A stretch of DNA of 64,000 nucleotides, from assembly GCA_947458455.1 (NCBI GenBank), contig CANGYJ010000005.1, positions 310,001-374,000 of the forward strand, written 5' to 3'. Shown here in pieces: positions 6,907-26,107 of this stretch. The stretch's first letter is position 1; each line of letters opens with the position of its first letter. The notes beneath the pieces were generated by a model, which did not search any database, was not told where the DNA came from, and saw nothing but the letters and a program-made list of their open reading frames with translations. The stretch comes from Verrucomicrobiaceae bacterium (lineage in GTDB: Bacteria; Verrucomicrobiota; Verrucomicrobiia; Verrucomicrobiales; Verrucomicrobiaceae). The position numbers and the translations under genes were made by a program.

Positions 6907-6914
6907 GGTAAGAA

Positions 6915-7451
6915 TTAGGAAAGGGAGAGAATATGGACAGGACACTCCAGTTCTGACAGAGGAATGCGAAAATAAGAAGGATGATCGGCAGGGCCGAAGG
7001 TCAGACAGCTAGTGTCTGCTGTGCCTGGCCATGAGGCGACCAAAACAAATCGCCGGGAGGCATTTCTGACCAGATCAACCGCCTTCAGCATCAGCGCCTC
7101 ATCAAATAGGATTTCCAGATGGTCCAGGCAGAGCACATCACTCTTGCTGGTATGCAACATGTCATAAAATGCCTCCTCAGCGGAAGCTGATCTGAGCGGG
7201 GCCGGTTGATCCAAAATGCTGGATGAAAGCGCTCTACCGATGCTAAGCACGGGGCATCTGACTTTTTGCGCGCACTGCCTTATGAAATCGGATCTGATTG
7301 CAGATGAGCCCCCAGCGATCCAAACAAGCCTGTAGTGGGCAAGGCGCACTTGATCGACCAACGCCTGGATGGTCGCATATTCAGAATCTAAAAAGCTGGG
7401 ACTCACAAAAATAAATGTTCCGAAACAGGTGGTGCTTCTGGCTGGCTGCAT
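6915..7451 (-). CDS. brxF: BrxF-like BREX type 3 protein with a degenerate P-loop
   Basis: About 178 aa. The C-terminal half carries V-L-C-L-D-H-L-E-I-L-F (106-116), then S-R-R-F-V-L-V-A-S-W-P-G (132-143) and A-D-H-P-S-Y-F-R-I-P (155-164). This order matches the BrxF family, where the first element is the Walker B-like LD-x-E-LLF. The Walker A position (I-A-G-G-S-S-A-I-R-S, 45-54) lacks the canonical G-K-S/T, so nucleotide binding is doubtful. brxF immediately upstream of brxC is the hallmark of BREX type 3. Start at 7451 is preceded by GGTGG; an alternative ATG lies at 7514. Confidence 0.7.
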   Translation of the reverse strand: MQPARSTTCFGTFIFVSPSFLDSEYATIQALVDQVRLAHYRLVWIAGGSSAIRSDFIRQCAQKVRCPVLSIGRALSSSILDQPAPLRSASAEEAFYDMLHTSKSDVLCLDHLEILFDEALMLKAVDLVRNASRRFVLVASWPGTADTSCLTFGPADHPSYFRIPLSELECPVHILSLS

Positions 7452-7524: not shown

Positions 7525-8496
7525 TCAATTCCGCCCCGGAATCTGACGACCACTCCCACCTGCCTCCCATGCCGGAATCCACGCATTCAGATCGAACCCG
7601 GCGGTCTGGTTGTGGCGGGCTAATTCCTTGAGCCAGCGGCCTGACCGCTTCTCGATGGTGTCGCGGTCCTTTTGGAAATAGACGTTTTCGGGTGGGCGGG
7701 CGGCGATGTCGGTGAGGGTGTTGAAAACGGCATAAGCGTTGGTGCCGAGTTCTTTTTGGTAGCCTGTGAGACGTGTGGAGAGGTCCAGTGACAGTGCCTG
7801 CAAGCCCTCAGCTCGCGCTTTCTTGTCGTCGGGCTTGGACTCGGGGAGGTGTAGCACAGTGTTCAATGCCATGATGGACTGGTCGGTGTCCATGCTGATG
7901 CTGCGGACGCTGGTGAGGAACTTGGAAAACTCGTCCCACATCTGCGGCAGGCTGCGGGAGGTGATCTCGATCTTCAACTGCGCCAGGGCCTCTTTGCTGT
8001 GGGAGGCTTTGATGGTGGCGACTTCTTCCTCGAAGATGACGCCGTTGGAGCAGTGCTTGCGCATGAACCCGATGTCGAAGCGGAGGGCGCGGGCACCATT
8101 GAAGCTGTTGGTTACCCGGAGGAAGGGCGTGAAGGGATCGTCTTTTTTGATCTCGCTGTCCCAGTAGTTCAGCACATGCGTTTTATGCATGAGGTCGATG
8201 AAGGCGTAGCTGAGGGTGCGTGGTGCTGAGGCACGTTTGGCTTCCCATTCGACCGATGAGAGTCCAGGGAAGGCTTTCTCGCAGACATCACGAGCCAGAT
8301 TCACCGCTTCCTGATTGGTGACGACACGGTAATCACGACTGACGACACCGAGCACGAGGCCGGTGAGCTTGTTCACCAGGGCTTTCTTGCCGGGAATGCT
8401 GATGCGGCGGGTGCTGCCGTTGGAACCAACGACGGCTTCGATGGGAACCTGATCCACATCAAAAAGGAGGTTTTGGACGGAGGTTTCGCGTTTCAT
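7525..8496 (-). CDS. DUF932 family protein
   Basis: About 323 aa with the DUF932 pattern: V-S-R-D-Y-R-V-V-T-N-Q-E-A near the N-terminus and, later, F-T-P-F-L-R-V-T-N-S-F-N-G-A-R-A-L-R-F-D-I-G-F and C-S-N-G-V-I-F. DUF932 proteins are typical of phages, plasmids and integrative elements; their biochemical role is not established. Its ATG overlaps the stop of the 112-aa gene by four bases (ATGA), so it is translationally coupled in the operon that begins with the vWA gene. The brxF start lies 73 nt downstream on the same strand, so read-through into the BREX block is possible. A second, divergent DUF932 protein is encoded at 16.05 kb. Confidence 0.8.
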   Translation of the reverse strand: MKRETSVQNLLFDVDQVPIEAVVGSNGSTRRISIPGKKALVNKLTGLVLGVVSRDYRVVTNQEAVNLARDVCEKAFPGLSSVEWEAKRASAPRTLSYAFIDLMHKTHVLNYWDSEIKKDDPFTPFLRVTNSFNGARALRFDIGFMRKHCSNGVIFEEEVATIKASHSKEALAQLKIEITSRSLPQMWDEFSKFLTSVRSISMDTDQSIMALNTVLHLPESKPDDKKARAEGLQALSLDLSTRLTGYQKELGTNAYAVFNTLTDIAARPPENVYFQKDRDTIEKRSGRWLKELARHNQTAGFDLNAWIPAWEAGGSGRQIPGRN

Positions 8497-8831
8497 GAGG
8501 GAGCAAGTTCGTCTTGCCACTCCACCATTCTGTGGTGGATGTCGTGGTAGGCGGAGAGTTTGGTTCGCTGGGTGGGACTGGCAGCGATGGCGCTTTTAAA
8601 ATTGCCGTAGTTGATGCTTTCATTGAGAGCGCTCATGAACATTGGCAGATCCGCCGCAGGACAAAGGATGCGCCACGGATAATCGGAGCCTGCATACGAG
8701 GCGATGGGTGTGCCAGTGCCAGCAGCTTTGGCGAGCTGGTCCAGATCCTCCCGGCAGCGGGCACGAATGTGATAGGTATCCGGTTCTTTGCGGACGATGG
8801 AGAAAAAACCAAGTTGGGTGCAGAGCCACAT
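8493..8831 (-). CDS. Conserved small protein, 112 aa, unknown function
   Basis: No recognised domain. The middle has an aromatic-rich A-G-S-D-Y-P-W-R-I segment, then S-I-N-Y-G-N-F-K-S-A-I-A and Y-H-D-I-H-H-R-M-V-E-W-Q near the C-terminus. The ordered mix of charged and aromatic residues suggests a folded single-domain protein. It starts six bases after the stop of the small membrane protein and overlaps the DUF932 start by four bases, so it is an internal member of a four-gene operon. No function is assigned. Confidence 0.7.
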   Translation of the reverse strand: MWLCTQLGFFSIVRKEPDTYHIRARCREDLDQLAKAAGTGTPIASYAGSDYPWRILCPAADLPMFMSALNESINYGNFKSAIAASPTQRTKLSAYHDIHHRMVEWQDELAPS

Positions 8832-8837
8832 GATGAA

Positions 8838-9068
8838 TCAAATGAGAAGGTCTGTTTGCTTGCGGAACTGGATGGCCAGACATGCGACGGCTGCTGAGCC
8901 AAGGACTGACGCCACAGCCAGGAATCCAGAAAGCAGCGCAACGAGACATCCAAGAACATTGAATGCAGACATGATGCTCAAGGGCGATGGCGTTATTATG
9001 GCTTTGAGCGGGGCCTGCTGAGTGACCTTGCGGACGAGACGTTGAAAGAGCGGACGTCTGCGGTTCAT
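8838..9068 (-). CDS. Small membrane protein, 76 aa
   Basis: A basic N-terminus (R-R-R...R...R-K) is followed by a long hydrophobic stretch (about residues 32-66: I-M-S-A-F-N-V-L-G-C-L-V-A-L-L-S-G-F-L-A) able to form two short or one long membrane segment, and a short charged tail. The ATG overlaps the stop of the vWA gene (ATGA), so translation is coupled. It may anchor the vWA protein or its partners at the membrane, but only operon context supports this. Confidence 0.6.
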   Translation of the reverse strand: MNRRRPLFQRLVRKVTQQAPLKAIITPSPLSIMSAFNVLGCLVALLSGFLAVASVLGSAAVACLAIQFRKQTDLLI

Positions 9069-9736
9069 GGCTTTTGCTCTTCCTCCTTTACAATGTCATT
9101 CATGGACTTGGCATCGTCTTCCATGGCTTGAGCGTCCATGTTGCCACCGCTCTTCATGCGCATAGCCCTCACTTTGCGGGCCATGGCTCCACCAGTGGAT
9201 CTGATACCCTTCATACTGAAACTGACATTGGCACTGAGCGAGGCGTCCATGTGCATAGATGTGCCGCTGGCGATGGCATCCTGATTGGCGGCAAGGAAGA
9301 GAAACTCCCAGCCTTTCTGATCACGGTAGAGGCGGATGAGGTCGCTGATGTGTTTGATGGTGTATTCCTGGGAGGCGTTTTCCATGCCATCGGTGAAGAT
9401 GGCGAGGATGACTTTACCGGGCTTCTCCAAGTCAGGAAGAGCACTGATTCTGCGGTCCGTCTCTTTGATGGTCCGGCCAATGGCATCGAGCAAGGCTGTG
9501 CTGCCTCTGGGTGTGTAAGTGGCGGCTGTGAGTTGAGGAACGTCCTGAATGGGCTTGGCGGAAACAGGGACTTCGTAAGCGTCATCAAACTGAATGAGCG
9601 TCAGGCGGGCATCGCAAGGAACGTCGAGCTGGGACTTGATGAAGTCATTGAAGGCGGCGACGGCGGGCTCCTGCATGGGTTGCATGGAACCGGAGCGGTC
9701 GAGGATGTAGGCGATTTCGGTGAGGTGTGGGTTCAT
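9065..9736 (-). CDS. von Willebrand factor A (vWA) domain protein
   Basis: About 223 aa, almost entirely one vWA domain. The metal-ion-dependent adhesion site is complete: D-R-S-G-S-M at residues 13-18, a conserved Thr in T-P-R-G-S-T-A-L, and F-T-D-G-M-E-N further on. The C-terminus is rich in Met, Lys and Asp. The ATG at 9736 is preceded by GAGGTG, one of the few clear ribosome-binding sites in the island. It is the first gene of a four-gene operon (vWA, small membrane protein, 112-aa protein, DUF932) facing the WYL regulator. vWA proteins usually act as metal-dependent adaptors in multi-protein machines; the partner is unknown. Confidence 0.85.
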   Translation of the reverse strand: MNPHLTEIAYILDRSGSMQPMQEPAVAAFNDFIKSQLDVPCDARLTLIQFDDAYEVPVSAKPIQDVPQLTAATYTPRGSTALLDAIGRTIKETDRRISALPDLEKPGKVILAIFTDGMENASQEYTIKHISDLIRLYRDQKGWEFLFLAANQDAIASGTSMHMDASLSANVSFSMKGIRSTGGAMARKVRAMRMKSGGNMDAQAMEDDAKSMNDIVKEEEQKP

Positions 9737-9798
9737 GATCACCTCGAATCTCTCACAGGGGGTGGGACATTCGCAGGGTGACAGGAAAAGTTTATGCA

Positions 9799-9812
9799 TT
9801 AATCTTCATTAA
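9799..9812. promoter_or_regulatory. Palindrome TTAAT-CTTC-ATTAA between divergent vWA and WYL genes
   Basis: A 5-bp inverted repeat with a 4-nt spacer ends one base before the WYL start codon, inside the 77-bp divergent intergenic region. It is a plausible operator through which the WYL protein controls itself and the vWA operon. The assignment is by position only. Confidence 0.35.
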
Positions 9813-9813
9813 G

Positions 9814-10866
9814 ATGTCCAAAGTATTCTCCACCCGAAGCTCGCGCTCCAACACAGTCCAATCGGCCCCACCTCTACGTTCAGGAGCCAGTCGTCCTGCC
9901 ATGTGGCGGGTGCTGGAGATTCACAAGATCATCCGCACTGGCAAACATCCCAACTGCTCCACCCTGGCGAAGGAGATTGAAGTGACACCGAAGACCATTC
10001 AGCGGGATGTGAGCTTCATGCGGGATCAACTCGGGCTGCCTTTGGAATACCACGCTATCAAGCACGGCTACTACTACACGCAGGAGGTGCATGAGTTCCC
10101 AATGCTGCATCTGTCTCGGAATGATCTTGTCGCTCTGTTCTTGGCACGTCATGCGCTGGAGCCCATGCGTGGAACGCGTCTGGAACGAATGCTGGCCGAG
10201 AGTTTCAGCAAAATTGCCGAAGCTTGCCCTGGCGAGGTTTCCATTGAATGGCACGAGCTGGACGATGCCTTTTCGGTGAAGGCTTCGGGAGTGCTGGCTG
10301 CGGATGTGACCTTGTTTGGTGATTTGCTGGATGCCATTCGCGGCTCACGAGAGGTGAGCTTTGACTACCACAAGCTCACGTCCTCCAAGCCTGAGCGTCG
10401 TTCGGTTCGTCCGCATCATATCGGTCAGATCGAGCATGGATGGTATTTGATCGCCTTTGATCCTGCCCGTGAAGCGATGCGCACCTTTGCCATGCAACGC
10501 ATCTCCAACCTCGAAATCCATAAGGCCAAATTCACACGCCAGGCTGGGTTCAATGCCCGCGATCATCTGGGAGGAGGCTTCGGTGTCTGGAGCTATGCTG
10601 GGGAGAAGGGCAGCAAACACGAAGTCCACATCCGGCTGGAGGGCTATGCGGCAAGAATTGTGGCCGAACGCCAATGGCACCCGACCCAGGCCATACGGAA
10701 GATCAAACCGGATGGGAGCATCATCGAGTTTCAAGCTGATCTCGCCGGGCTGGAGGAAATCACACGATGGGTGCTGAGCTGGGGCAGCAAGGCGAAAGTG
10801 ATCGGACCACAAGAGCTAAAGCAGCGCGTGCAGGATGAGTTGGAGAAGATGACGGACGTGGGCTGA
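9814..10866 (+). CDS. WYL-domain transcriptional regulator (HTH-WYL-WCX)
   Basis: About 350 aa. A short Ser/Arg-rich leader is followed by a DeoR/HTH_11-type helix-turn-helix (about 35-90: C-S-T-L-A-K-E-I-E-V-T-P-K-T-I-Q-R-D-V-S-F-M-R-D), then a WYL domain (R-R-S-V-R-P-H-H-I-G...H-G-W-Y-L-I-A-F-D, with R-I-S-N-L-E) and a C-terminal WCX region ending in V-L-S-W-G-S-K-A-K-V-I-G-P. Such proteins sense a nucleic-acid-like or nucleotide ligand and often regulate phage-defence loci (BrxR, CapW). It is divergent from the vWA operon and about 2.4 kb from the BREX-like genes, so it may control either. The start at 9814 excludes a poorly conserved 12-residue extension. Confidence 0.88.
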   Translation: MSKVFSTRSSRSNTVQSAPPLRSGASRPAMWRVLEIHKIIRTGKHPNCSTLAKEIEVTPKTIQRDVSFMRDQLGLPLEYHAIKHGYYYTQEVHEFPMLHLSRNDLVALFLARHALEPMRGTRLERMLAESFSKIAEACPGEVSIEWHELDDAFSVKASGVLAADVTLFGDLLDAIRGSREVSFDYHKLTSSKPERRSVRPHHIGQIEHGWYLIAFDPAREAMRTFAMQRISNLEIHKAKFTRQAGFNARDHLGGGFGVWSYAGEKGSKHEVHIRLEGYAARIVAERQWHPTQAIRKIKPDGSIIEFQADLAGLEEITRWVLSWGSKAKVIGPQELKQRVQDELEKMTDVG

Positions 10867-10881
10867 TGTGAACCACGATTC

Positions 10882-10945
10882 AAGTGTCGGTAGTGCCGAC
10901 AGTTCAGCTACCAATCGAAGTCTCGGTAATGGCGAGAGTTCAGCT
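10882..10945 (+). repeat. Tandem pair of 36-nt units, each with a hairpin
   Basis: Hairpin 1 is TGTCGG-TAGTG-CCGACA (10885-10901). Hairpin 2 is TCTCGG-TAATG-GCGAGA (10921-10937), with one mismatch next to the loop. Each is preceded by AAG and followed by GTTCAGCT. The second base pair of the stem is G-C in one and C-G in the other. The remaining part of 10867-11199 holds no gene that I can support; a weak hairpin lies near 11018-11042. Confidence 0.7.
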
Positions 10946-11199
10946 TGAACTCCTGACCAAAGTTAAAGGCGGCTCGAATTGCGGCGTCGCTACCCCTGAC
11001 CGCCAGCTAAAGAAAAGCTCCCCTTCAAAGAAGAGGGGCTTCGCTTCTCACGCGGACAAATCGACGTGAGTGTCCATAATGCCGTGGAGGGTCTCAGTGC
11101 AATGACCGTTCCTTTTGTGTCATAAACATTCGATGGGCTGGCGGTTCGTTGTTCATACCAACGTGCCGCCAGACCTCCGCAAACGATCAACCTCAACTC

Positions 11200-11421
11200 A
11201 TGTCACGGCCCACCCACTATTCGCCCGTGATCTCCAGGTTTGTCGTCTCCGTCCTCTACCACGAGGCCCGGCAACGCAGGATTCCGATGACTCGTCTCAC
11301 GGATGAACTGCTGCTCCAGGCGCTTCGTGGCACACCCGGATGGCAGACGGCCACCAGCCTGCGAATCACCGACGATTCCGCCTCCAACACTCCGGCTCCT
11401 GTGATTGCGCAAGCGGCATAG
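11200..11421 (+). CDS. Small hypothetical protein, 73 aa
   Basis: First gene of the rightward cassette. It has a short amphipathic region (F-V-V-S-V-L-Y-H-E-A-R-Q-R-R-I-P-M-T-R-L-T-D-E-L-L-L-Q-A-L) that looks like two helices, and a low-complexity Ala/Thr tail. The ATG at 11200 follows a C/A-rich leader without a Shine-Dalgarno sequence, as do its neighbours, and a hairpin terminator follows 27 nt after the stop. No function is recognised. Confidence 0.55.
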   Translation: MSRPTHYSPVISRFVVSVLYHEARQRRIPMTRLTDELLLQALRGTPGWQTATSLRITDDSASNTPAPVIAQAA

Positions 11422-11447
11422 CAGCACTCCACCACCCTCATCACAGG

Positions 11448-11483
11448 AAGCCCATGTGCCCTCGCCGGTGCATGGGCTTTTTC
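11448..11483 (+). terminator. Hairpin terminator
   Basis: AAGCCCATG (11448-11456) pairs with CATGGGCTT (11471-11479), followed by a short T run. Confidence 0.75.
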
Positions 11484-11517
11484 GTGTCCATACCCACAAC
11501 CCAACACCACCACCATC

Positions 11518-12045
11518 ATGGCTATCAAACTCAGCGCCAATTATTCCAAAAAGCTCGGCCTGCCTCAATACAGCAGCCACAGCTTCTCCGCCTCCATCGA
11601 GACGGAACTCTCCGACATCACCCAGGCGGAGACGGAGATCGCCAGGCTTTACGGCCTGCTCCAGCACTCTGTTGACCAGGAAATCCAGCATCCCGGCTTT
11701 GTGCCGGAAGGCAACGGATCGAACGGCTCCAACGGCAATCATGCGCCGCAGAACGGACGCACCTACCCGATAAACGGCAACGGTCATCGTGCTCCAGCCA
11801 AACCTGCGGCTGATCACTGGAACTGCACGGAGGGACAACGCGGCTACCTCCTGCGTATCATCAACGAGAACCAACTCCCGAAGCAGGAGGTCGAAGATCT
11901 GTCCCAGCAGCTCTTTGGCACCGGCGTCAAGGAGCTGAACAAAATGCAGGCGAGCCAGCTCATCGAGGATCTTCTCGTGAAGGTTGGCAAGCCTGCTCCA
12001 CGCCAGACCCGCTGGCAGCAACGTCCCACCGCCCAAGCCGCATGA
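11518..12045 (+). CDS. Hypothetical mobile-element protein, 175 aa
   Basis: The N-terminus (M-A-I-K-L-S-A-N-Y-S-K-K-L-G-L...S-S-H-S-F-S-A-S-I-E-T-E-L) has the look of a conserved beta-rich element protein family. A Gly/Asn/Ser/His-rich linker occupies about residues 72-98, and a helical C-terminal domain follows (C-T-E-G-Q-R-G-Y-L-L-R-I-I-N-E-N...L-S-Q-Q-L-F-G-T-G-V-K-E-L...S-Q-L-I-E-D-L-L). The last four bases overlap the ATG of the nuclease gene (ATGA), so the two are translationally coupled and probably act together. The leader is CA-rich and lacks a Shine-Dalgarno sequence. Confidence 0.7.
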   Translation: MAIKLSANYSKKLGLPQYSSHSFSASIETELSDITQAETEIARLYGLLQHSVDQEIQHPGFVPEGNGSNGSNGNHAPQNGRTYPINGNGHRAPAKPAADHWNCTEGQRGYLLRIINENQLPKQEVEDLSQQLFGTGVKELNKMQASQLIEDLLVKVGKPAPRQTRWQQRPTAQAA

Positions 12046-12857
12046 ACGCCGAAGCCAGCTCCATCCCCAAGGAGCCCGGCGAGAAGGACATCCTCAGCGA
12101 CCTGCAACGAACCGTCTCGGCCTCGCGGCTGGGGCTGTTTTTGCAGTGTCGTCTGAAGTTCTACTTCCGCTATGTGCTCCGCCTCACCAAGCCCAAGACA
12201 CCCTCGCTCCATCTCGGCAGCTCGGTTCATGCCGTGCTGAAGTCCTGGAACAAGGCCCGCTGGCTGCAAAAGCCGCTCACGCTCAAGCAGGCGCATGACG
12301 CCTACACCACCGCGTGGGCGGACACCTCGGAAGGTTCCGTCACCTGGGAACCTGGCGAGGAAGACGATGAGAAAACCACCGGCTGGCGTCTGGTCGATAC
12401 TTACCTGCGGGAATCCCACGTTCCCGCCGAGTTGAAGCCTGATGCCGTCGAGGTGTCGGTGCAGGCGGACCTGCGCATGCATGGTCTGCCTAAACTCATC
12501 GGTATCCTCGACCTCGTTCAGCGCGGGGAGATCATCGACTACAAAACAGCCTCCACTACCCCCAACAGCGATAAGGTCATCCACACGACCGAAATCCAGA
12601 CCAGTGCTTACGCCATCCTCTACCGGCACAACACCGGCCAGCAGGAAAACGGCATGCAGCTTCATCACCTGGTCAAGCTCAAGAACCCCAAGGTCGTCAT
12701 CACCACCATGCCACCCATGAGCCAGCAGCAGGAATCCCGGCTGTATCGGCAAATGGAGTCCTACCTCAACGGACTTCAGCACGGTCAGTTCGTTCCTTCA
12801 CCGGGGATGCACTGCGCGAGCTGCGAGTTCTTCAACGAGTGCCGCAAATGGCACTAA
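12042..12857 (+). CDS. PD-(D/E)XK nuclease, RecB/Cas4-like
   Basis: A 271-aa PDDEXK_1 family protein. It has S-A-S-R-L-G-L-F-L-Q-C-R-L-K-F-Y-F near residue 30, H-L-G-S-S-V-H-A-V-L (conserved His of motif I), the catalytic G-I-L-D-L-V followed by I-I-D-Y-K-T-A (D...D-x-K), then a Q-x-x-x-Y motif (E-I-Q-T-S-A-Y-A). Cysteines at the N-terminal L-Q-C-R and the C-terminal H-C-A-S-C-E-F-F-N-E-C are placed as in Cas4/AddB-type iron-sulphur nucleases. It probably trims DNA ends. It is coupled by ATGA to the 175-aa protein and lies in the same cassette as a ligase and a clamp. Confidence 0.85.
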   Translation: MNAEASSIPKEPGEKDILSDLQRTVSASRLGLFLQCRLKFYFRYVLRLTKPKTPSLHLGSSVHAVLKSWNKARWLQKPLTLKQAHDAYTTAWADTSEGSVTWEPGEEDDEKTTGWRLVDTYLRESHVPAELKPDAVEVSVQADLRMHGLPKLIGILDLVQRGEIIDYKTASTTPNSDKVIHTTEIQTSAYAILYRHNTGQQENGMQLHHLVKLKNPKVVITTMPPMSQQQESRLYRQMESYLNGLQHGQFVPSPGMHCASCEFFNECRKWH

Positions 12858-12889
12858 CCCACCTCAACCCTTCACCACTTCTTATCATC

Positions 12890-12991
12890 ATGTTGCAATC
12901 CATCCTTACCACCCTCTTCGACATCCTCGGCACTACTATCTATGTCATTTGCGCCGTCATCGCCCGTATCGCGCAATGCCTGATGAAGTAA
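12890..12991 (+). CDS. 33-aa single-span membrane peptide
   Basis: The ATG at 12890 opens 33 codons: M-L-Q-S-I-L-T-T-L-F-D-I-L-G-T-T then I-Y-V-I-C-A-V-I-A-R-I-A-Q-C-L-M-K. It is strongly hydrophobic with one basic end, like small membrane peptides or type I toxins. The leader (CTTATCATC before ATG) matches those of the neighbouring genes, and a hairpin terminator lies 26 nt after the stop, which supports a real gene. Confidence 0.5.
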   Translation: MLQSILTTLFDILGTTIYVICAVIARIAQCLMK

Positions 12992-13017
12992 GGGCCAATC
13001 ATCCACCTCAACCGCTT

Positions 13018-13049
13018 GGAGCCGGATCACCGCGAGGTGGTCCGGCTCC
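13018..13049 (+). terminator. 14-bp hairpin, probable terminator
   Basis: GGAGCCGGATCACC (13018-13031) pairs with GGTGGTCCGGCTCC (13036-13049) with one G-U pair and a GCGA tetraloop. The T tract behind it is short. Confidence 0.65.
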
Positions 13050-13072
13050 TTGCATTTCCAAACATCATCACC

Positions 13073-14143
13073 ATGGAATCCATCACACTCTACTTTCGCG
13101 AGGGATCATCGGACAAGGTTTATCAGGCCAGCATTCAGCCCCAAGGCGGCGGCCACATGGTTCACTTTGCGTATGGCCGTCGCGGCTCCACACTCACCAC
13201 CGGCACGAAGACCACCTCACCCGTGGATTATCAGACCGCCAAGAGCATCTTCGATAAACTCGTGCGCGAAAAGACCGCCAAAGGCTACACGCCTGGAGAA
13301 GACGGCACGCGCTACCAGCACACGGAGAAGGCAGCGAAAGCCACCGGTATTCAATGCCAGCTCCTCAATCCTGTGATCGAAGAACGCGTCGAGGATCTCA
13401 TCCACGACCGCGAGCACTGGATGCAGGAGAAAATGGATGGCCGTCGTCTGCTGCTGCAAAAGGAAGGCAGCCTCATCAGCGGCATCAACCGGCTTGGTCT
13501 TGGTGTCTCCATTCCAAAGACCATCGCCGAGAGCGCCTCACGTTACCGTCATGACTTTCTCATCGACGGCGAGGCTGTGGGCGACACCCTGCATGTGTTT
13601 GACCTGCTGTTCATCAGCGGGGAGGACATGCGCACGCGTGCCTTTGCCACCCGCTACTTCCGTCTGCGCGACATGCTCGATGCTTTCGATCATCCGCATG
13701 TCAACCTCGTGCCGAGCTTCTGCTTTCCGGAAAAGAAGGAGTGGTTCCACCGGTTCAAGGACGCAGGCAAGGAGGGCGTGGTCTTCAAGCATGTGGAGGC
13801 TCCTTACACCGCCGGACGCCCGAGCACCGGCGGCACGCAGCTCAAGCACAAGTTCCACGAGACGGCCTCCTTCATCGTCACCAAGCTCAATGACAAACGC
13901 AGCGTGTCCCTCATGCTGTGGGAGAGCGGCAAGGTGCGGCCTGCGGGCAATGTCACCATCCCGCCGAACCACGACATCCCCAAACCCGGCGAGGTCGTGG
14001 AGTGCCGGTATCTTTACGCCTTCAAGGAGTCCGGCTCGATCTACCAGCCGGTCTTTCTCGGCAGGCGTGACGACATATTCCACGAGGAGTGCACCACCTC
14101 CCAGCTCAAATACAAGACGGAGCCGATGAAGCTCGCCGCCTGA
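13073..14143 (+). CDS. WGR-domain ATP-dependent DNA ligase
   Basis: 356 aa. Residues 1-70 form a WGR domain (Y-G-R-R-G-S in place of W-G-R). The ligase adenylation domain has motif I E-K-M-D-G-R-R with Lys120 as the AMP acceptor, motif III F-L-I-D-G-E-A, motif IV E-G-V-V-F-K and motif V L-K-H-K-F. An OB-fold-like C-terminus follows. It is expected to seal nicks or breaks using ATP, whereas bacterial replicative LigA uses NAD. WGR domains bind DNA ends or nicks (as in PARP). Start at 13073 (ATCACC-ATG) gives a clean WGR N-terminus. Confidence 0.85.
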   Translation: MESITLYFREGSSDKVYQASIQPQGGGHMVHFAYGRRGSTLTTGTKTTSPVDYQTAKSIFDKLVREKTAKGYTPGEDGTRYQHTEKAAKATGIQCQLLNPVIEERVEDLIHDREHWMQEKMDGRRLLLQKEGSLISGINRLGLGVSIPKTIAESASRYRHDFLIDGEAVGDTLHVFDLLFISGEDMRTRAFATRYFRLRDMLDAFDHPHVNLVPSFCFPEKKEWFHRFKDAGKEGVVFKHVEAPYTAGRPSTGGTQLKHKFHETASFIVTKLNDKRSVSLMLWESGKVRPAGNVTIPPNHDIPKPGEVVECRYLYAFKESGSIYQPVFLGRRDDIFHEECTTSQLKYKTEPMKLAA

Positions 14144-14166
14144 TTTGAGCAGTCATCCAAACACAC

Positions 14167-14197
14167 GAAGCCCCTGTGCCTCACCGCCAGGGGCTTC
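14167..14197 (+). terminator. Hairpin terminator
   Basis: GAAGCCCCTG (14167-14176) pairs perfectly with CAGGGGCTTC (14188-14197), followed by TTCATT. Confidence 0.75.
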
Positions 14198-14226
14198 TTC
14201 ATTCAACCCATCCATTCCACAACATC

Positions 14227-15723
14227 ATGAAACCCATCAAGCTCCCCGTGGCGGAATTGAAACCCGCCCTCATCGGCCTGGGCAAAGTCCTCCCCGGACG
14301 CTCCACCCTTGCCATCCTCAACAACATCAAAGTCGAGCGCACACACGACGGCTGGATCGCGCTCACCAGCACCGATCTCGACCGCTGGGCCACCGTCCGT
14401 CTTGAGCATCCCGCCGAGGGACCTCCCGCCACGGTGCTCCTTCCCTTCGACCAGCTTTCACAGCTCGTGAAAAGCTGCGGCAAGGGCGAGAGTATTGAGG
14501 TGACGGCTTCCGGCGATCACACGCTCATGCGCTTCCCGCTGGGTGACACCCTCGGTGAATCCAAGATGCCGTTCGTGTCCCCGGATGAATTTCCGGCGAC
14601 ACCACGGCTCAGGAACGAGGCCATCCCCTTGTCCTCCACCCTTCGGGAATCCCTCCTGGAGGCGATGGACTGCGCCAGTGTGGACAGCACGCGTTATGTC
14701 CTCAACGGCACCTTTATTGATGCCAAAGACAGCAAGGCCAACTACGTCGTCGCCACCGATGGCAAGCATCTGTATTCCGCCAACTCGTTCACCCTCCCGC
14801 TCAAGGAATCCGTCATCATCCCGAACCACAAGTTTCTCGGATGGAAGGAGTTCGCCTCGGATGGCGAATGGCAGATGCGCGTGGGCGATAAGCACCTGCA
14901 ACTGAGTTCCCGGCGCTGGCGCTTCATCACGAAGACCATCGAGGGCAACTACCCTGACTGGCGTGCGCCGATTCCCAACCCTGCCGACGCGAAAACGGTC
15001 ATCACCCTCGACCCGGCGAAACTGGAGACGCTCATCAAGCTCATCCAGCGCATGCCTTGTCATGATGATCGTTACCACACCCTCGGCCTGGAGTGGAAAG
15101 GCGGACAGTTCATGCTCATGGGCAAGGACAAGCCGGAGGAAGACTGGCTCCGGGTGCCCGTGCCTGACATTCAGGGACGCGGCCCCGACGTGACGGTGTT
15201 CCTTGACCGCAACTACCTCACCAAGGGGTTTGGCTATGGTTTGAATACCATCAGCCTCATCAGCGCGGTTGCTCCCATCCGTCTGCACAGCGGCGGGAGG
15301 CAGCTCATCGTCATGCCCGTTCGTGCCAACGATGCGGAACCTGCATCCGCTCCATCCAAGCCTGCTCCACCACCGGCTGTCGTCACGGCAGCCTCCTCAC
15401 CTCAACCTCCGCCCAAGGCGGAACAACCCACACCAACCCCACCCATGCAAACGCATCCACCCACCAACGGCAAACATCATCCCGCCACCAACGGCACCAC
15501 CACCTCTGCTGCATCCCCCGTCGATAAGGTGGACACCAAGCCCTCACTTGAAGCCGCTTTGCTTCAGATCGAAGGCATCAAGACCGGCTTCCGCGAGGCC
15601 ATCAACGGACTCACGAAAGTCGGCGACCACATCCGTCAGGCCATGCGCGAGCAGAAGTCCGGCGAGAAGGAAATCCAGGGCATTCGTCAGACCCTGCGCT
15701 CGCTGCAAAGCGTGCGCATCTGA
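14227..15723 (+). CDS. Second DNA polymerase III beta sliding clamp, with long C-terminal extension
   Basis: About 498 aa. Residues 1-370 follow the three-domain beta-clamp layout: M-K-P-I-K-L-P-V-A-E-L-K-P at the start, D-S-T-R-Y-V-L-N-G-T-F near 160, I-E-G-N-Y-P-D-W near 240 and the terminal I-V-M-P-V-R. A Pro/Ala/Thr-rich linker (about 375-445) and a roughly 55-residue helical, probably coiled-coil tail follow (E-A-A-L-L-Q-I-E-G-I-K-T-G-F-R-E-A). The housekeeping dnaN at 32.5 kb ends at I-L-M-P-M-R without a tail. The clamp probably tethers island enzymes such as the ligase, nuclease or an outside polymerase; the tail may carry a private partner site. The leader lacks a Shine-Dalgarno sequence. 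Confidence 0.88.
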   Translation: MKPIKLPVAELKPALIGLGKVLPGRSTLAILNNIKVERTHDGWIALTSTDLDRWATVRLEHPAEGPPATVLLPFDQLSQLVKSCGKGESIEVTASGDHTLMRFPLGDTLGESKMPFVSPDEFPATPRLRNEAIPLSSTLRESLLEAMDCASVDSTRYVLNGTFIDAKDSKANYVVATDGKHLYSANSFTLPLKESVIIPNHKFLGWKEFASDGEWQMRVGDKHLQLSSRRWRFITKTIEGNYPDWRAPIPNPADAKTVITLDPAKLETLIKLIQRMPCHDDRYHTLGLEWKGGQFMLMGKDKPEEDWLRVPVPDIQGRGPDVTVFLDRNYLTKGFGYGLNTISLISAVAPIRLHSGGRQLIVMPVRANDAEPASAPSKPAPPPAVVTAASSPQPPPKAEQPTPTPPMQTHPPTNGKHHPATNGTTTSAASPVDKVDTKPSLEAALLQIEGIKTGFREAINGLTKVGDHIRQAMREQKSGEKEIQGIRQTLRSLQSVRI

Positions 15724-15750
15724 CGGCACCTGTCAGCACCACCATCCACT

Positions 15751-15800
15751 CAAGGCACGGGCCTGGCGCATCCTCGCGATGCCCAGGCCCGCCTTGTTTT
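15751..15800 (+). terminator. Hairpin terminator
   Basis: CAAGGCACGGGCCTGG pairs with CCAGGCCCGCCTTG (one bulged A) around a 16-nt loop and is followed by TTTT. Confidence 0.75.
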
Positions 15801-15819
15801 GGGCATACCGCCCATCGTC

Positions 15820-16020
15820 ATGTCCCGCATCTCCTCCCTGGTCTTCGACCGGAACGAGCAACTCAAGCGAGCCACCATCATCACACCGCTCGGCTCGATT
15901 AGAGTCGAGTGGAGGAAGGTGGCCGGTGACCGCCACTGGATTTCCTCGGGAGATCTCGCCGCCCGACTCCTCGCCGTTCCTGTCATCCAACGCATCGAGC
16001 GCATGGTTCAACCACCATGA
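15820..16020 (+). CDS. Small hypothetical protein, 66 aa
   Basis: M-S-R-I-S-S-L-V-F-D-R-N-E-Q-L-K-R-A-T-I-I-T-P-L-G-S-I-R-V-E-W continues into W-I-S-S-G-D-L-A-A-R-L-L. It appears to be a compact alpha/beta protein of unknown function. The ATG at 15820 follows CCCATCGTC, the leader type used through this cassette, and the next gene starts 31 nt downstream with no terminator between, so the two are probably co-transcribed. Confidence 0.5.
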   Translation: MSRISSLVFDRNEQLKRATIITPLGSIRVEWRKVAGDRHWISSGDLAARLLAVPVIQRIERMVQPP

Positions 16021-16051
16021 TGCTCACAACCTTCAACTCAACTAATTCATC

Positions 16052-16831
16052 ATGATTGCAGACCTCGATCACCCTGCTCCTGCCGCCATCACACGGCGGA
16101 AGCCCAACCTCGTGCTCCACTGTGGAGCCTCCCATGTGGAACTGCCCGAAGTGCGGCGCATTCCCACACCCGATCCCACCGACACCTGGTGTCCTATCCC
16201 GCACTATCAGCTCATCCATACCGTTCAGCAGGCACTTCAAACCACCAATCTGCGCATCGGCTCCCAGGCACATTCGTTGTCGCATGAGGGCCACCGCTAT
16301 TTCGGATTGATGGAAGTCCATGCCACGCGGACGAGCAATGATTACGCCTGGGTTCTCGGCATTCGGAACTCGCACGACAAGACCTTCCCCGCTGGCATTG
16401 TCGCCGGTGCCCAGGTCTTCGTCTGCGATAACTTGTCGTTCTCAGGCGAGATCCAGTTCGCCCGCAAGCATACCCGATATATCCTGCGCGACCTGCCCCA
16501 GCTCGTGAGCCGCTCCATCGGCCTGCTGCTGGCCAAGTGGCATCATCAGGACAAACGCATCGCCGCCTACAAGGATGCCGAGATCACGGACACCAACGCC
16601 CACGATCTCATCATTCGTGCGACCGATGTCGGAGTGTGCAGCAACCGCATTATTCCCTCCATCCTCCAGGAATGGCGTGAACCCAGGCATACGGCCTTCG
16701 AGGGCCGGAGTGTCTGGAGCTTGTTCAACGCGTTCACGGAATCGCTCAAGGAGGGCAATCTAGCCGAGCTGCCGAAACGAACGCAGGCACTCCACGGCCT
16801 GATGGACACCTATGTCGGGCTCTCCGCCTGA
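16052..16831 (+). CDS. DUF932-like protein (second copy in the island)
   Basis: 259 aa. The segment G-L-M-E-V-H-A-T...W-V-L-G-I-R-N-S-H-D-K-T-F-P-A-G-I-V-A-G-A-Q-V-F-V-C-D-N-L-S-F-S-G matches the conserved centre of DUF932-type element proteins, here in a short version compared with the 323-aa copy at 7.5 kb. Sequence similarity between the two is low, so they are not a recent duplication. Role unknown. The start follows CTAATTCATC-ATG and the gene ends in a hairpin terminator. Confidence 0.7.
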   Translation: MIADLDHPAPAAITRRKPNLVLHCGASHVELPEVRRIPTPDPTDTWCPIPHYQLIHTVQQALQTTNLRIGSQAHSLSHEGHRYFGLMEVHATRTSNDYAWVLGIRNSHDKTFPAGIVAGAQVFVCDNLSFSGEIQFARKHTRYILRDLPQLVSRSIGLLLAKWHHQDKRIAAYKDAEITDTNAHDLIIRATDVGVCSNRIIPSILQEWREPRHTAFEGRSVWSLFNAFTESLKEGNLAELPKRTQALHGLMDTYVGLSA

Positions 16832-16843
16832 TACCGTCCGCAT

Positions 16844-16875
16844 CAGCACTGGCAGGCGCGAGTCTGCTGGTGCTG
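16844..16875 (+). terminator. Hairpin terminator
   Basis: CAGCACTGGCAG (16844-16855) pairs with CTGCTGGTGCTG (16864-16875) with two G-U pairs; a T-rich stretch follows. Confidence 0.6.
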
Positions 16876-16937
16876 TTGTGGGTTCATTTTATCTTTTCAA
16901 ATACTCACTCACCTACCTGTAGAGGGTAAACATCATC

Positions 16938-17510
16938 ATGTTCAACTTCACCGAATCCGCCAAGAAAGCGCTGGATGTTTTCGCCAGCGCCACCGGCCTG
17001 CGGCTCTTCCCCGATCCGCTCAAGCATCCAGGAGGAGAAGATGTATGCACGCTCGACCTGCCTGGCTACCGCCAGCTCGAATCCTACACCTGCGGCTTTG
17101 TGGCTGGTGCCATGATCCTCCACACCTTCCGTCCCGGTGCCTCATTGAAAAAGTTCTTCGAGCAGTGCAATCCTGATTGCGAGCACGGACTGGACATCAA
17201 GCCCCTCATCCGCTGTCTGCGCACCAACGGCATTGGTGTCAGCCAGCGCCACAACCTCGACTTCGAGAAAATCGTCAGCACCCTCGACCAGGGCTTCCCC
17301 ATCATCACTCTCACCAAAACACCCCGTTCTGATGAGGAACACTGGGTGGTGATTTATGGATACGCACGCCATCCGAACCGCGTGTTCATTGCCGGTGAGG
17401 GCATACCCTTGATCAACAACCTTACCGGGCAGAAGGAGATTCCATGGTCCACATTCACACGCTCGAAATGGGCGGAACGGGGTTTTGGACTCGTGTGTTG
17501 GGGCAAGTGA
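16938..17510 (+). CDS. C39-like cysteine peptidase-fold protein
   Basis: 190 aa. The papain-like signature is visible: Cys52 in S-Y-T-C-G-F-V-A-G-A-M at a helix start, His135 in E-E-H-W-V-V-I-Y-G-Y, and a following I-A-G-E-G turn where C39-family proteins carry Asp/Asn. There is no signal peptide and no ABC transporter nearby, so it is not a bacteriocin exporter; it would act in the cytoplasm. It closes the rightward cassette and has a terminator 2 nt after its stop. The target is unknown. Confidence 0.7.
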   Translation: MFNFTESAKKALDVFASATGLRLFPDPLKHPGGEDVCTLDLPGYRQLESYTCGFVAGAMILHTFRPGASLKKFFEQCNPDCEHGLDIKPLIRCLRTNGIGVSQRHNLDFEKIVSTLDQGFPIITLTKTPRSDEEHWVVIYGYARHPNRVFIAGEGIPLINNLTGQKEIPWSTFTRSKWAERGFGLVCWGK

Positions 17511-17512
17511 AC

Positions 17513-17546
17513 AAAGACTCCCGTGTGAAGCGCGGGGTCTTTTGTT
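17513..17546 (+). terminator. Hairpin terminator
   Basis: AAAGACTCCCG pairs with CGGGGTCTTT (one bulge), followed by a T-rich tail. Confidence 0.7.
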
Positions 17547-17557
17547 TATTTATTCGC

Positions 17558-18028
17558 TCAACCTCCGGAGCAGCCCTTCAAGACAAAGATAGGCCACAGC
17601 ACAATCTTGATGATTCCAAACATCAGACCTTCGTCGAATGCGCGGCCAAATTTCATCGCTATCAATCCCGTCACCAAGTAGGCACCCACAATCCGAGGAT
17701 TGAAGTCAAACAATGGTTTTGGATGCAGTTCATGGTCGCACTTGGAGCAGTATGTGACACCTGGGCTGAGATCTGCTCCACATTCCGGGCATTGAGAGTG
17801 TTTCGCCCCGAAATCATCCTGACTCGAATCTTCTTTCCGTTTTCTCTTTTTTGAGCGCCGAGGCTGTGGGCTATCAGCTAGTTCGGTTATCGCATCCTCC
17901 ACCGGCGTAGATTCCAGGTGCTGCGGATTGGACGCGATTAGCGTATTGACGATGGTCTGGTATTCCTCGGGGGATATTTCCCCGGCTACAAGCCTTTCAT
18001 CCAGTCGCTTCTTCAGAGTTGGGTCCAT
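17558..18028 (-). CDS. Zinc-ribbon membrane protein with N-terminal SHOCT-like module
   Basis: About 156 aa. M-D-P-T-L-K-K-R-L-D-E-R-L-V-A-G-E-I-S-P-E-E-Y opens the protein and resembles a short SHOCT oligomerisation motif. A Lys/Arg/Ser-rich linker leads to C-P-E-C-G-A-D-L...Y-C-S-K-C-D (two CxxC pairs, a zinc ribbon), then one or two hydrophobic segments. The start at 18028 lies one base after the stop of the upstream gene; an ATG at 18040 inside that gene is also possible. I chose 18028 because the upstream protein begins with the same spacing (M-N-E-D-L-K-R-T-L-D-E). Function unknown. Confidence 0.65.
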   Translation of the reverse strand: MDPTLKKRLDERLVAGEISPEEYQTIVNTLIASNPQHLESTPVEDAITELADSPQPRRSKKRKRKEDSSQDDFGAKHSQCPECGADLSPGVTYCSKCDHELHPKPLFDFNPRIVGAYLVTGLIAMKFGRAFDEGLMFGIIKIVLWPIFVLKGCSGG

Positions 18029-20370: not shown

Positions 20371-22893
20371 TCAAGTCGTCTGAGCCGTAGTGTGGCCCTC
20401 TGCCGTTGCGGACCCAATAAGTTCAACCCTATAAAACTTTTGTGCTTCGTAGTTCGATGAAACAGACTTTTTGCTTTCGCGGGTAATTTTGAATATGCCA
20501 CCGAGCAACCGCACACCGTCCGAATTAAAGTGGCGCTTCAGGAGCTTTCCAACGAACAATTGCCCAGAGTCTTGTTCCTCATTGAACACACCTTCCGCAC
20601 TTCCAATCTCTGCGATGTCCCGAGCAGCGACCTCTTCACCAGGACGACGTTTGGCGACAGCGCGCAATAGGCTGATAAGGAGATCATAGTTCGGATCGCT
20701 CATCGAGTCCTGCATCATTTTATAGTCATCCTCGAACAGCCTCAGTGCGAAGCAGTGCTCAAGAATCCAGGATGTCACTCGCTCCCAAGCTGAAAATCGG
20801 AATCCGGTCATCCGACCACCAGTGGAATGTCCTTTTTGTGCATACTCAATCACGAGGCTGTAAACAGCGGCTAGAATCTGTGGACGAGCAGCGACGATGT
20901 GGTCGATGAGTCCTCCCTCTTCCCATTTCCGGAATAAGTAGCTATCTGGACGCTTGCAGATGCGAATCAGGCAGGTTCTCGAAGCGAGGTCGTCTGACAA
21001 CACCGCTCCGTTCGAGGTTCCTGCGAAGACCTCGGCCGTAACGTCCAGTTCAGCCTGAATGTATGGTGCACGTGCTTCAAAAATGGGTTCAGTAAGCAAG
21101 GATTCGAGAAAGCTCAGGTCACGCAGATCATTTTTCGTGACGTTGTCCAAGTAGATGAGTGCGTTTCCGCCACAGAGCGCCTTGGAGATCCCCTCTTTAC
21201 ATCGCTCAGGATTGGATTTTAGCAGAGCCACTGCCTTCGGCTTCATGTCGTAAACAGCAGCGACTACCTTGGCGAGAAAACCTGCCCCTGCAGCTCGCTG
21301 ATCCTTCGTGACGAAGAAGAATGGAACCCGTCCTCCTTCGCCCAAGATCCCGGATCTAGCCAGGCATGGAGCGAGCAAAAATGCGACAGCCCGTGCTTTA
21401 TCGAAAGGTGTTGCGAATTGGAAGTCCTGCAGGAGTTCCAGCAGTAGTGCGGCAGCCTCAGGGACAGTGGGTAATTCGGCAATTGTTCCCTCCGCATGAA
21501 TCTCAAGGCGTCTGTCGTAGCCCGACACTACGCGTGCTTCCATTCCATCCCACACCAGCGCCGGAACCTTGGCGAGCACTTTGATAGGGCGGATTAGGTG
21601 CCGATTAAGCCGGGCTGACCCGATAATGAGTTTTGCCTCGCTCTCAGTGAGCGGTGACTGTGACAGTCCGTTCTTGCCCTTGCGGACGAATTGACAACGA
21701 TCGGGCTGATCAGTGAAGCAGGCCAGGCTGGCGGCATCGTAGCTTTCAACACTATCTCCCGTCACATCACAAAATTGGCCTGCACGAAAGTAGGTGACTG
21801 GTCCTAGAACCTCGACCACCTGCTTCGTCCACACGCCGGTTGAGGCATCTTTATGGATCGTTGTGTCGCTTGTGTCAGCGGGCGTCTGGGATGGCAGCTC
21901 CGCCTGCATTTCAATCACCTTATCTTTGATTGCATTCTTCAGTGCGCGACGTTTTGCGCCGAGATGGTCCTCGGCGAATTTAACCAGATCCTCTTCGGAC
22001 AGCTGGTCGCGCAGAATGCGCAGGCCCGCACATAGCCTGATAAAGCCCTCCATGATGGTGTGCCTTCCATCGTTATCCTCACAGGCGCGTTTGATGGCCT
22101 GTTGCTGCCTTCGAACAGAAGCCATCGCAAGCCTGCCTGCGGACGTCTTCTCGCTGACCTCTATCGCGTGTGGTGGTCTAGCGAGATCACTTGCGAATTG
22201 GGCGAATTCTTCAGAGCCCATGACTGAGCGGCATTCGTCAAATCCGTTGCCTGGAGCGTCGAGAGGCACCTGCATAAGGTGAACTCTTCTTTTGAAGACA
22301 ATGCGTAAATTCAGTGCAGCGGAGTAAAAAAATGCGTTGAACAAGGTGTCCTTGTCTCCGCCAAAGTGGATAGACGCTGAAGTGTTGCGATCCAGGGCCT
22401 TCTCTAGCTCACCAAGGGGAAAGGGGAACTCGGAATCTGGCAGGCCATAGGCATCGACATCATTGAATCCAAGCGCTTGAAAGTGGCCGCTGTCACAGAG
22501 CGCCAAGGCCTGCTCCTCCCTCTCTACCACCACAATCGGCTGACCGGCCCGTGTGCTGCCATTTCGAAAATGCGGTGGTAAGTATGGAAAAGCCGGAGCA
22601 TCGTTGCGTCGGTGATACAATTTTCCGTCACAAACATCATCAGTTCTAAGACGAGAAAATGGCTCTTCACGGTCTAGGATCGGTTGCCCGTCTAGATCAA
22701 AATAGGGGAACACGATCCCAGGTGCGTAGAGATCAAACTTTTTCAAAGCCTCTTCGGCACTGATGCGCCTGATGCCAGCGTCCTCTACGGTGTTCGGATC
22801 GACTCCCGGAATCGAGGGTGCTCCCCCATTTTGAGAGTCATCCTGAGCGGTCCAATGCTTCGCAGTTGTTTCTTGGTCGCCCATAGAAATCAT
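20371..22893 (-). CDS. Mobile-element primase/helicase-like protein with eroded P-loop
   Basis: 840 aa. The N-terminal part has a Toprim-like segment (Q-P-I-V-V-V-E-R-E-E-Q-A-L-A-L-C). The C-terminal half resembles the superfamily 3 helicase domain of integrative-element replication proteins: R-V-P-F-F-F-V-T-K-D-Q-R-A-A-G-A-G-F-L at the Walker A position, then A-L-I-Y-L-D-N-V and the sensor-1-like A-G-T-S-N-G-A-V-L-S-D-D-L-A-S-R-T-C-L-I-R-I. The Walker A lacks G-K-S/T. It is the last gene of the leftward module and its ATG overlaps the preceding stop (ATGA). It is probably the element's replication initiator or helper. Confidence 0.65.
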   Translation of the reverse strand: MISMGDQETTAKHWTAQDDSQNGGAPSIPGVDPNTVEDAGIRRISAEEALKKFDLYAPGIVFPYFDLDGQPILDREEPFSRLRTDDVCDGKLYHRRNDAPAFPYLPPHFRNGSTRAGQPIVVVEREEQALALCDSGHFQALGFNDVDAYGLPDSEFPFPLGELEKALDRNTSASIHFGGDKDTLFNAFFYSAALNLRIVFKRRVHLMQVPLDAPGNGFDECRSVMGSEEFAQFASDLARPPHAIEVSEKTSAGRLAMASVRRQQQAIKRACEDNDGRHTIMEGFIRLCAGLRILRDQLSEEDLVKFAEDHLGAKRRALKNAIKDKVIEMQAELPSQTPADTSDTTIHKDASTGVWTKQVVEVLGPVTYFRAGQFCDVTGDSVESYDAASLACFTDQPDRCQFVRKGKNGLSQSPLTESEAKLIIGSARLNRHLIRPIKVLAKVPALVWDGMEARVVSGYDRRLEIHAEGTIAELPTVPEAAALLLELLQDFQFATPFDKARAVAFLLAPCLARSGILGEGGRVPFFFVTKDQRAAGAGFLAKVVAAVYDMKPKAVALLKSNPERCKEGISKALCGGNALIYLDNVTKNDLRDLSFLESLLTEPIFEARAPYIQAELDVTAEVFAGTSNGAVLSDDLASRTCLIRICKRPDSYLFRKWEEGGLIDHIVAARPQILAAVYSLVIEYAQKGHSTGGRMTGFRFSAWERVTSWILEHCFALRLFEDDYKMMQDSMSDPNYDLLISLLRAVAKRRPGEEVAARDIAEIGSAEGVFNEEQDSGQLFVGKLLKRHFNSDGVRLLGGIFKITRESKKSVSSNYEAQKFYRVELIGSATAEGHTTAQTT

Positions 22894-25988: not shown

Positions 25989-26107
25989 TTCTAATAACCA
26001 AACTAAGAACATTCGGCGAGGTTTGTCAATATCCACGGAAGCCGAAACCACGCAAAATCAAGGTTTCCAGACATCTAAAAACCTCCTGAAACAGCCCCTG
26101 GTGAAAC

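Follow-up and report, generated by a model that had tools for sequence, protein, structure and literature searches.

An apparently mobile DNA-handling operon of Verrucomicrobia with its own sliding clamp and an optional ligase

The 64,000-nt stretch of Verrucomicrobiaceae DNA analyzed here (hereafter the window) belongs to a genome of 5.35 Mb in 28 contigs. Its + strand carries, at 11200–16882, a single unit consisting of p73, p175, a nuclease (NUC), an ATP-dependent DNA ligase (LIG), a sliding clamp (CLAMP), a small open reading frame (ORF), a DUF932 protein and a terminal hairpin. Apparently, this is a DNA-handling operon of Verrucomicrobia, approximately 5.7 kb in length, which moves horizontally and in which the ligase is optional. 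The reading that we tentatively prefer, as quite possible rather than probable, is that the unit is a DNA-end-processing or recombination module of integrative islands in Verrucomicrobia. Its composition and placement are read from the sequences, which reveal a fixed gene order, intact catalytic residues, a patchy distribution with one empty site, and a sharp boundary on the right, at which the cargo changes; each biochemical step is what we infer from them.

Gene Content and Boundaries of the Unit

The general order across the copies is p73, p175, NUC, two membrane-type proteins, LIG, CLAMP, the small ORF, DUF932 and the hairpin, where the membrane-type proteins, LIG and the small ORF are optional. 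All named proteins of the window are encoded in the same direction on the + strand. Pfam matches are above the cut-offs for PDDEXK_1 (110 bits, cut-off 22), DNA_ligase_A_M (42.3 bits, cut-off 26.2), WGR (36.2 bits, cut-off 22), DNA_pol3_beta_2 (48 bits), DUF932 (31 bits, cut-off 23) and Peptidase_C39_2 (32 bits). The original prediction placed a nuclease, a WGR-ATP ligase, an extended clamp and a DUF932 protein together, and both the Pfam matches and the conserved order bear this out. The order recurs in 26 of the 28 loci fetched from other genomes, as far as the contigs extend; the two exceptions are L026, which ends within LIG, and L029, which contains only remnants. Given this recurrence, the unit is not a product of chance. 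Islands do gather unrelated genes, and the C39-like peptidase and the small ORF vary, but it is highly improbable that the unit came together from unrelated genes by chance or history alone, because the order recurs across genera and families, p175 overlaps NUC, and there is one terminal hairpin.

The core parts of the predicted cassette were retained, while the unit proved larger than described, opening with p73 (11200–11421). This small basic protein is encoded by an open frame in 22/22 copies, including that of the window, and has no Pfam or NCBIfam family. By its general pattern only, it resembles a ribbon–helix–helix autoregulator, and it would probably repress its own operon. A promoter-like stretch, TGCAAT-N-TCATAAAC (11098–11127, + strand), is conserved in an alignment of 22 upstream regions and may function as a promoter; the sigma-70 scan does not report it. 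The two-part protein p175 (11518–12045; 25 sequences aligned) has no Pfam, PHROG or NCBIfam family, its profile matched nothing below E 0.17 among solved structures, and its gene overlaps the NUC start by 4 bases.

The small optional ORF (15799–16020) has tblastn matches in 8/28 loci. Two membrane-type genes, recognized by eye, are found in 17 and 18 of the 28 fetched loci and are missing in the window. The last gene of the unit encodes the DUF932 protein (16052–16831) and is followed by a terminator-type hairpin (about 16837–16882, + strand) with a z-score of −4.8 in the window copy and −2.5, −1.3 and −4.8 in three other copies. In most copies, TTTAGCT or a near form lies 3′ of it, and in the window copy this motif is worn. 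Since the hairpin precedes the gene of the C39-like peptidase (16938–17510, + strand), this gene lies outside the unit. The peptidase, which had been counted as a cassette member, was found in only 2/28 loci from other genomes; a C39-like protein also lies near p175 in L096. A hairpin with a 14-bp stem can be noted at 13018–13049, immediately 5′ of the ligase start. The Rfam search gave no match at E ≤ 1 within window positions 10500–17600.

Nuclease, Ligase, Clamp and DUF932 Protein

NUC (12042–12857; PF12705, E 2.1e-31) is a PD-(D/E)XK nuclease of the Cas4/AddB/RecB-like type, which keeps the catalytic residues of the superfamily. The residues C36, C258, C261 and C267, together with H63, D157, D166, K168 and Q186, are invariant in 14 aligned rows, and by analogy with Cas4 and AddB the four cysteines may hold an iron–sulfur cluster. 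The protein scores below the Cas4 equivalog cut-off (TIGR00372, 34.2 versus 65 bits). It matches Cas4 models and, weakly, DruK in PADLOC, as well as exonuclease families of PHROG; a single weak relative was found in IMG/VR, and its profile has no match at 0.01 among solved structures.

LIG, with its start corrected to 13073 (13073–14143), combines a WGR domain (PF05406), a nucleotidyltransferase domain (PF01068) and an OB-like domain. The nucleotidyltransferase motifs of an ATP-dependent DNA ligase are kept: KxDGR (K120, D122–R124) and EGxVF are invariant in 15 rows. Its score is far below the cut-off for LigD, the ligase of non-homologous end joining (NHEJ; TIGR02779, 56.2 versus 227.75 bits). 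The profile matches PDB 1vs0 at 2e-8, which we take to be Rv0938, LigD.

CLAMP, also with a corrected start (14227–15723), has by its AlphaFold2 secondary structure and its alignment to host DnaN a DnaN-type sliding clamp fold with three domains. The model comprises a complete three-domain clamp, a disordered linker (368–438) and a 55-residue helix (440–494) as a tail, which is conserved, with a mean predicted local distance difference test score (pLDDT) of 82.7 and a predicted template modelling score (pTM) of 0.68. The N-terminal Pfam model is marginally below the cut-off (24.3 versus 24.4), the replicative DnaN equivalog score is also below it (TIGR00663, 82.2 versus 137.65 bits), and the identity with host DnaN (window 32492–33589) is 25%. 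T177, G179, L182, P243 and P364 are identical in 15 clamps and host DnaN; presumably, these are residues of the peptide pocket.

The DUF932 protein (PF06067; 16 rows aligned) was modelled by AlphaFold2 with a mean pLDDT of 82.2. The order of its strands and helices suggested a Rad52-like fold, which the structure comparisons did not support: RAD52 appeared only at a Foldseek E of 0.8 and a template modelling score of 0.1. The best VIA-align Z of 8.4, to a Mediator subunit, is near the level of this tool for models without relatives. Among solved structures, the profile matched nothing below E 0.17.

Distribution in the Genus and Beyond

The ligase search gave matches in 21/56 related genomes, of which 19 belong to the same genus (the window genome included) and two have weak matches. 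Among the 39 genomes of the genus, LIG was found in 20, NUC in 22 and, if fragments are counted, DUF932 in 24, with at most three ligase matches per genome. These matches group into 64 clusters, many of them cut by contig ends; the counts exclude 30 CLAMP-profile rows below 100 bits (host DnaN) and nine short DUF932 rows. A strong clamp match is present in 34 clusters, every one of which has NUC, LIG or DUF932 on the same strand. The neighborhood survey, set beforehand as a condition on which the original prediction could fail, revealed the clamp in 27 of the 29 clusters with a ligase and does not refute the prediction.

In four of the 34 CLAMP clusters there is no ligase, though NUC and DUF932 are present. 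One of these is the C9 copy of the window genome, where two membrane-type genes stand in place of the ligase and a different ATP ligase lies approximately 5 kb upstream. As NUC–CLAMP–DUF932 clusters exist without it, the ligase is an accessory part. The idea of the ligase as a core part was therefore abandoned, the ligase being absent from these four clusters and present in three of 20 p175 loci of other genera.

In a wider survey, the best 80 of 101 ligase-drawn loci of named genomes were examined, with phyla assigned by hand from titles. Of these, 52 are from Verrucomicrobia, with the clamp in 34, NUC in 30 and p175 in 29 within the fetched flanks, which are often cut. In the 28 loci of other phyla, the clamp is found in none (0/28), and NUC with p175 in two, both from Planctomycetota. 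Thus, the predicted ligase–clamp pairing holds within the genus and not in bacteria outside Verrucomicrobia, and two viral contigs contain proteins resembling both. These IMG/VR contigs, L150 and L153, encode a WGR-ligase-like protein and a large clamp-like protein (frames of 775 and 963 amino acids) a few kb apart, with scores of 69–77 bits. A pattern scan of IMG/VR for the clamp found no relative, but the clamp is weakly matched in these ligase-drawn contigs. Among plasmids, 29 records match the ligase or its domains; in 17 the match covers at least 80% of its length, and the weakest matches are in LigD-type or unannotated places. Relatives of the ligase occur on large plasmids, in one phage record and in 27 IMG/VR contigs (at least four through the WGR part alone), and those of DUF932 in 67 viral contigs.

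In a broad phylum sample the ligase is rare (2/194 genomes, the window genome included), and p175 gave matches in 68/387 genomes. Twenty loci of other genera were picked from the p175 matches, mostly strong ones, and two of them are cut short. NUC adjoins p175 in 17 of them, and DUF932 is clearly present in 10, the clamp in six and the ligase in three; the order CLAMP–p175–NUC–DUF932 was found in L263, L268 and L269. Of all pairs, p175–NUC is the most stable, and DUF932 and CLAMP are its old partners. In L075, L096 and L122, relatives of the unit stand alongside varying sets of DUF3150, DUF1257, RadC and an AAA ATPase, which we take to be Ycf46-like.

It is improbable that the unit is instead a replication or break-repair kit private to the island or host, whose clamp and ligase copy or mend element DNA and which takes no part in the exchange of cargo. 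The presence of a clamp, a ligase and a nuclease, the ligase profile match to PDB 1vs0 and the RadC and AAA genes near the relatives are consistent with it. However, no polymerase or Ku was recognized in the unit, the ligase is optional, and several copies are flanked on both sides only by ordinary-looking genes (by eye), where host enzymes should suffice.

Mobility and the Right End

As far as the sequences indicate, the unit is patchy, integrase-enriched and sharply bounded on the right, where the cargo changes. Five copies adjoin one common conserved gene, which by eye resembles a methyltransferase gene. At this place genome G012 has an empty site, with 868 bases where G013 has 9.1 kb. Thirteen of the 35 clusters, in 12 genomes, have an integrase gene at most 25 kb away, against 2.7 expected by an estimate that ignores contig ends.

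Homology between the copies ends directly past DUF932, at a hairpin of varying stem, followed in many copies by TTTAGCT. Of 25 copies, 15 have TTTAGCT or GTTAGCT at most 140 bases from the DUF932 stop. For comparison, one of the two forms occurs in 16 of 3233 one-strand windows taken from these loci, a background that includes the right ends themselves. In five of the 20 other-genera loci (L251, L252, L257, L259 and L260), the unit ends with hairpin–TTTAGCT, which follows DUF932 in four of them and in the fifth comes directly after NUC. The sequence TTTAGCTATCA is absent from the window with one mismatch allowed and absent as an exact match from its own genome; the analysis therefore used a shorter form.

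The right end of another copy persists as an inverted fossil at 11005–11098 on the − strand and includes the last approximately 16 codons of a DUF932 gene, a hairpin and TTTAGCT. Its DUF932 C-terminus was detected by tblastn (residues 45–60 of the last 60, E 0.002); the hairpin (−16.4 kcal/mol) is accompanied by CTTTAGCT, and the 13-mer CTTTTCTTTAGCT is located at G000:C5:321005. A near-identical unit in G033 (L030) has a fossil at the same place with a different hairpin. Additionally, a 2.1-kb cargo (an IrrE-type helix–turn–helix regulator and a PIN-like gene, by eye) at the right end of G000:C9 is 95% alike to that at the inverted fossil end in G033. The fossil ends and this cargo, common to C9 and G033, indicate that cargo and unit have changed partners at the right end. 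The exchange may have been by site-specific or by homologous recombination.

Eight matches to the 13-mer were found. Two of them (G016 and G025) lie within a segment more than 99.8% identical in five genomes and, for this reason, are not independent scars. This segment (L270–L274; G016, G025, G004, G029 and G011) is at least 11.5 kb long, occupies different places in five species-level genomes and carries a 67-residue DUF932 fragment with a hairpin; G011 holds 5.6 kb of it, cut by the contig end. Either the segment is a mobile element of very recent origin, or the genomes share a contaminant. Near the DUF932 end in L042, L045 and L039, the WYL gene is present as C-terminal pieces, which are turned towards the right end of the unit, and in the window an intact WYL gene faces the fossil right end.

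A more far-reaching and rather doubtful reading is that the unit drives a cargo-exchange system of Verrucomicrobia not described before. At the hairpin–TTTAGCT end, the nuclease and clamp would act so that defence systems are joined, exchanged and lost. This role would be similar to that of the integron platform, with unrelated enzymes and a sliding clamp of its own.

Defence Genes in the Neighborhood

PADLOC models were searched in 14 loci, approximately 7 kb on each side, with the genes of the unit removed and E ≤ 1e-20; models rather than ORFs were listed. On the DUF932 side, 60 ORFs match 70 models, and on the p73 side, 58 ORFs match seven. These counts are not counts of systems, because the models overlap. 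Among the models listed for the DUF932 side (25 of 70) are GajA, QatA–D (the whole Qat set), HKD with Snf2 and RmrA, each in one ORF. The p73-side models are those of mad3 (two ORFs), WYL, IetA and Cas3c. Single scans revealed QatA in L046 and an HKD–Snf2 helicase in L231, and both L047 and L048 match models of defence-type ATPases; BrxC follows DUF932 in L033, and restriction–modification-type genes are present in L264. The prediction of an island-borne DNA-processing unit is supported, and defence genes are neighbors of this unit.

The main rival reading, possible though on balance unlikely, is that the unit is itself an undescribed anti-phage or anti-plasmid defence operon. NUC would attack foreign DNA, with the clamp guiding it on DNA that is actively replicating, and LIG or the membrane proteins would be subtype modules protecting the host or signalling. 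The clustering of defence genes on the DUF932 side, the individual matches in the six loci named above, and the autonomous, patchy organization with optional modules and no mobility genes of its own are consistent with this. At the same time, p175, CLAMP and DUF932 have no match in PADLOC, and the position of the cargo is equally explained by hitch-hiking. Relatives of LIG and DUF932 on plasmids and in viral contigs also argue against it, as does p175–NUC beside RadC, DUF3150 or DUF1257 genes (L096 and L122), which are apparently genes of elements.

Possible Mechanism

If the unit is a DNA-end-processing or recombination module, NUC with its partner p175 would cut or resect DNA ends. The host clamp loader would load the dedicated ring, which would keep the machinery on DNA, perhaps via the helical tail. 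Where LIG is present, its WGR domain would bind breaks and the ligase would seal them. The joint outcome might be recombination or repair of island ends, through which cargo, often defence systems, would be swapped beside the DUF932 end. A precedent for contact between a nuclease and a clamp is that of E. coli RecB and the beta clamp (PMC13254535).

Several observations weigh against such a module. The consensus clamp-binding motif, as given in PMC13254535, was found in LIG in 0/15 sequences, in NUC in 1/14, in p175 in 0/25 and in DUF932 in 0/16, no more than in shuffled sequences. No such motif is conserved in the partners, so that tethering of the proteins of the unit to the clamp is no more than possible. 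CLAMP itself has Q-x-[LVIM]-x-[LIF] at the end of its tail. A loose pattern for this end holds in 25 of 29 clamps, and in two more if M is allowed; the remaining two are cut by the contig end (L067) or frame-shifted (L076). A C-terminal clamp-binding tail was considered and is not claimed, since this pattern departs from the published consensus. The DUF932 model has no clear fold relative by Foldseek or VIA-align, where the lack of a family excludes nothing. The membrane-type proteins (17–18 of 28 loci) do not fit a plain recombination kit. Inside the unit there is no integrase or recombinase and no recognized annealing protein, and for 22 of the 35 clusters the nearest 25 kb contain no integrase, many contigs being short. 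A k-mer search near the ends found no terminal repeats or target duplication and no consistent repeat, and the TTTAGCT form is missing at the right end in 10 of 25 copies. Finally, the window has a BREX-like set on the p73 side, opposite to the DUF932-side cargo.

Comparison with Known Systems

NUC resembles the Fe–S PD-(D/E)XK nucleases Cas4 and AddB in its superfamily, four cysteines, catalytic residues and matches to Cas4 models. In contrast to Cas4, it is below the equivalog cut-off and has p175 and a clamp alongside; CRISPR genes were not searched for. LIG, an ATP ligase related to the ligase domain of LigD, recalls bacterial NHEJ (Ku–LigD), but it differs by its WGR domain and sub-cut-off score, and the unit has no recognized Ku or polymerase domain.

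In lambda Red type exonuclease–annealing modules of phages, a small gene adjoins an end-processing nuclease on mobile DNA. The unit is similar in its small gene by the nuclease and in the matches of NUC to PHROG exonucleases, and differs by the family-less p175 and the added clamp, DUF932, ligase and membrane-type proteins. The E. coli RecBCD–beta clamp pair (PMC13254535) likewise combines a RecB-type nuclease with a sliding clamp. However, E. coli uses the host clamp and the RecB motif QVEMEF, whereas the unit has a dedicated clamp and no such motif was found in it.

LIG also matches two retron XIII models of PADLOC (HEAT-ARM and WGR). The HEAT-ARM_XIII model, PDLC02920, covers nearly the whole WGR ligase (8.2e-22); its name may be wrong, and it may hold such ligases under another name. 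No reverse transcriptase was found among the proteins scanned, in which no search was aimed at this enzyme.

Other Features of the Window

On the p73 side, a BrxC/PglY gene (DUF6079; 3181–6945, − strand; PADLOC BrxC, E 0) belongs to the BREX-like set, with PglZ and PglX past the window edge. At this place and in L235, the set comprises PglX, PglZ, an SNF2 helicase and BrxC, together with a protein of the Schlafen/AlbA type and one that by eye is probably a TIR protein. Beside the WYL regulator, 7525–9799 on the opposite strand encodes another DUF932 protein and a VWA protein of a phage family (phrog_7371, 4e-56). A tyrosine integrase (24843–26051, − strand; PF00589, 1.1e-18) is located 8 kb past DUF932. 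Near it, at 20371–22893, there is a gene of an 840-residue protein with no Pfam family and a weak PHROG match, primase-like by eye.

Significance

Among the titles and abstracts found in open-access literature on WGR ligases, DUF932, clamps with defence or mobile elements, retron XIII and Verrucomicrobia hotspots, there was no description of the unit. Nor was a description found there of a mobile operon that has a sliding clamp to itself and retains it beside a Cas4-like nuclease across several families of one phylum. The parts of the unit are few, small and testable. If the unit is a defence system, it would be one carrying its own clamp. Should it move defence cargo or load it, the turnover of defence islands in Verrucomicrobia would be easier to explain.

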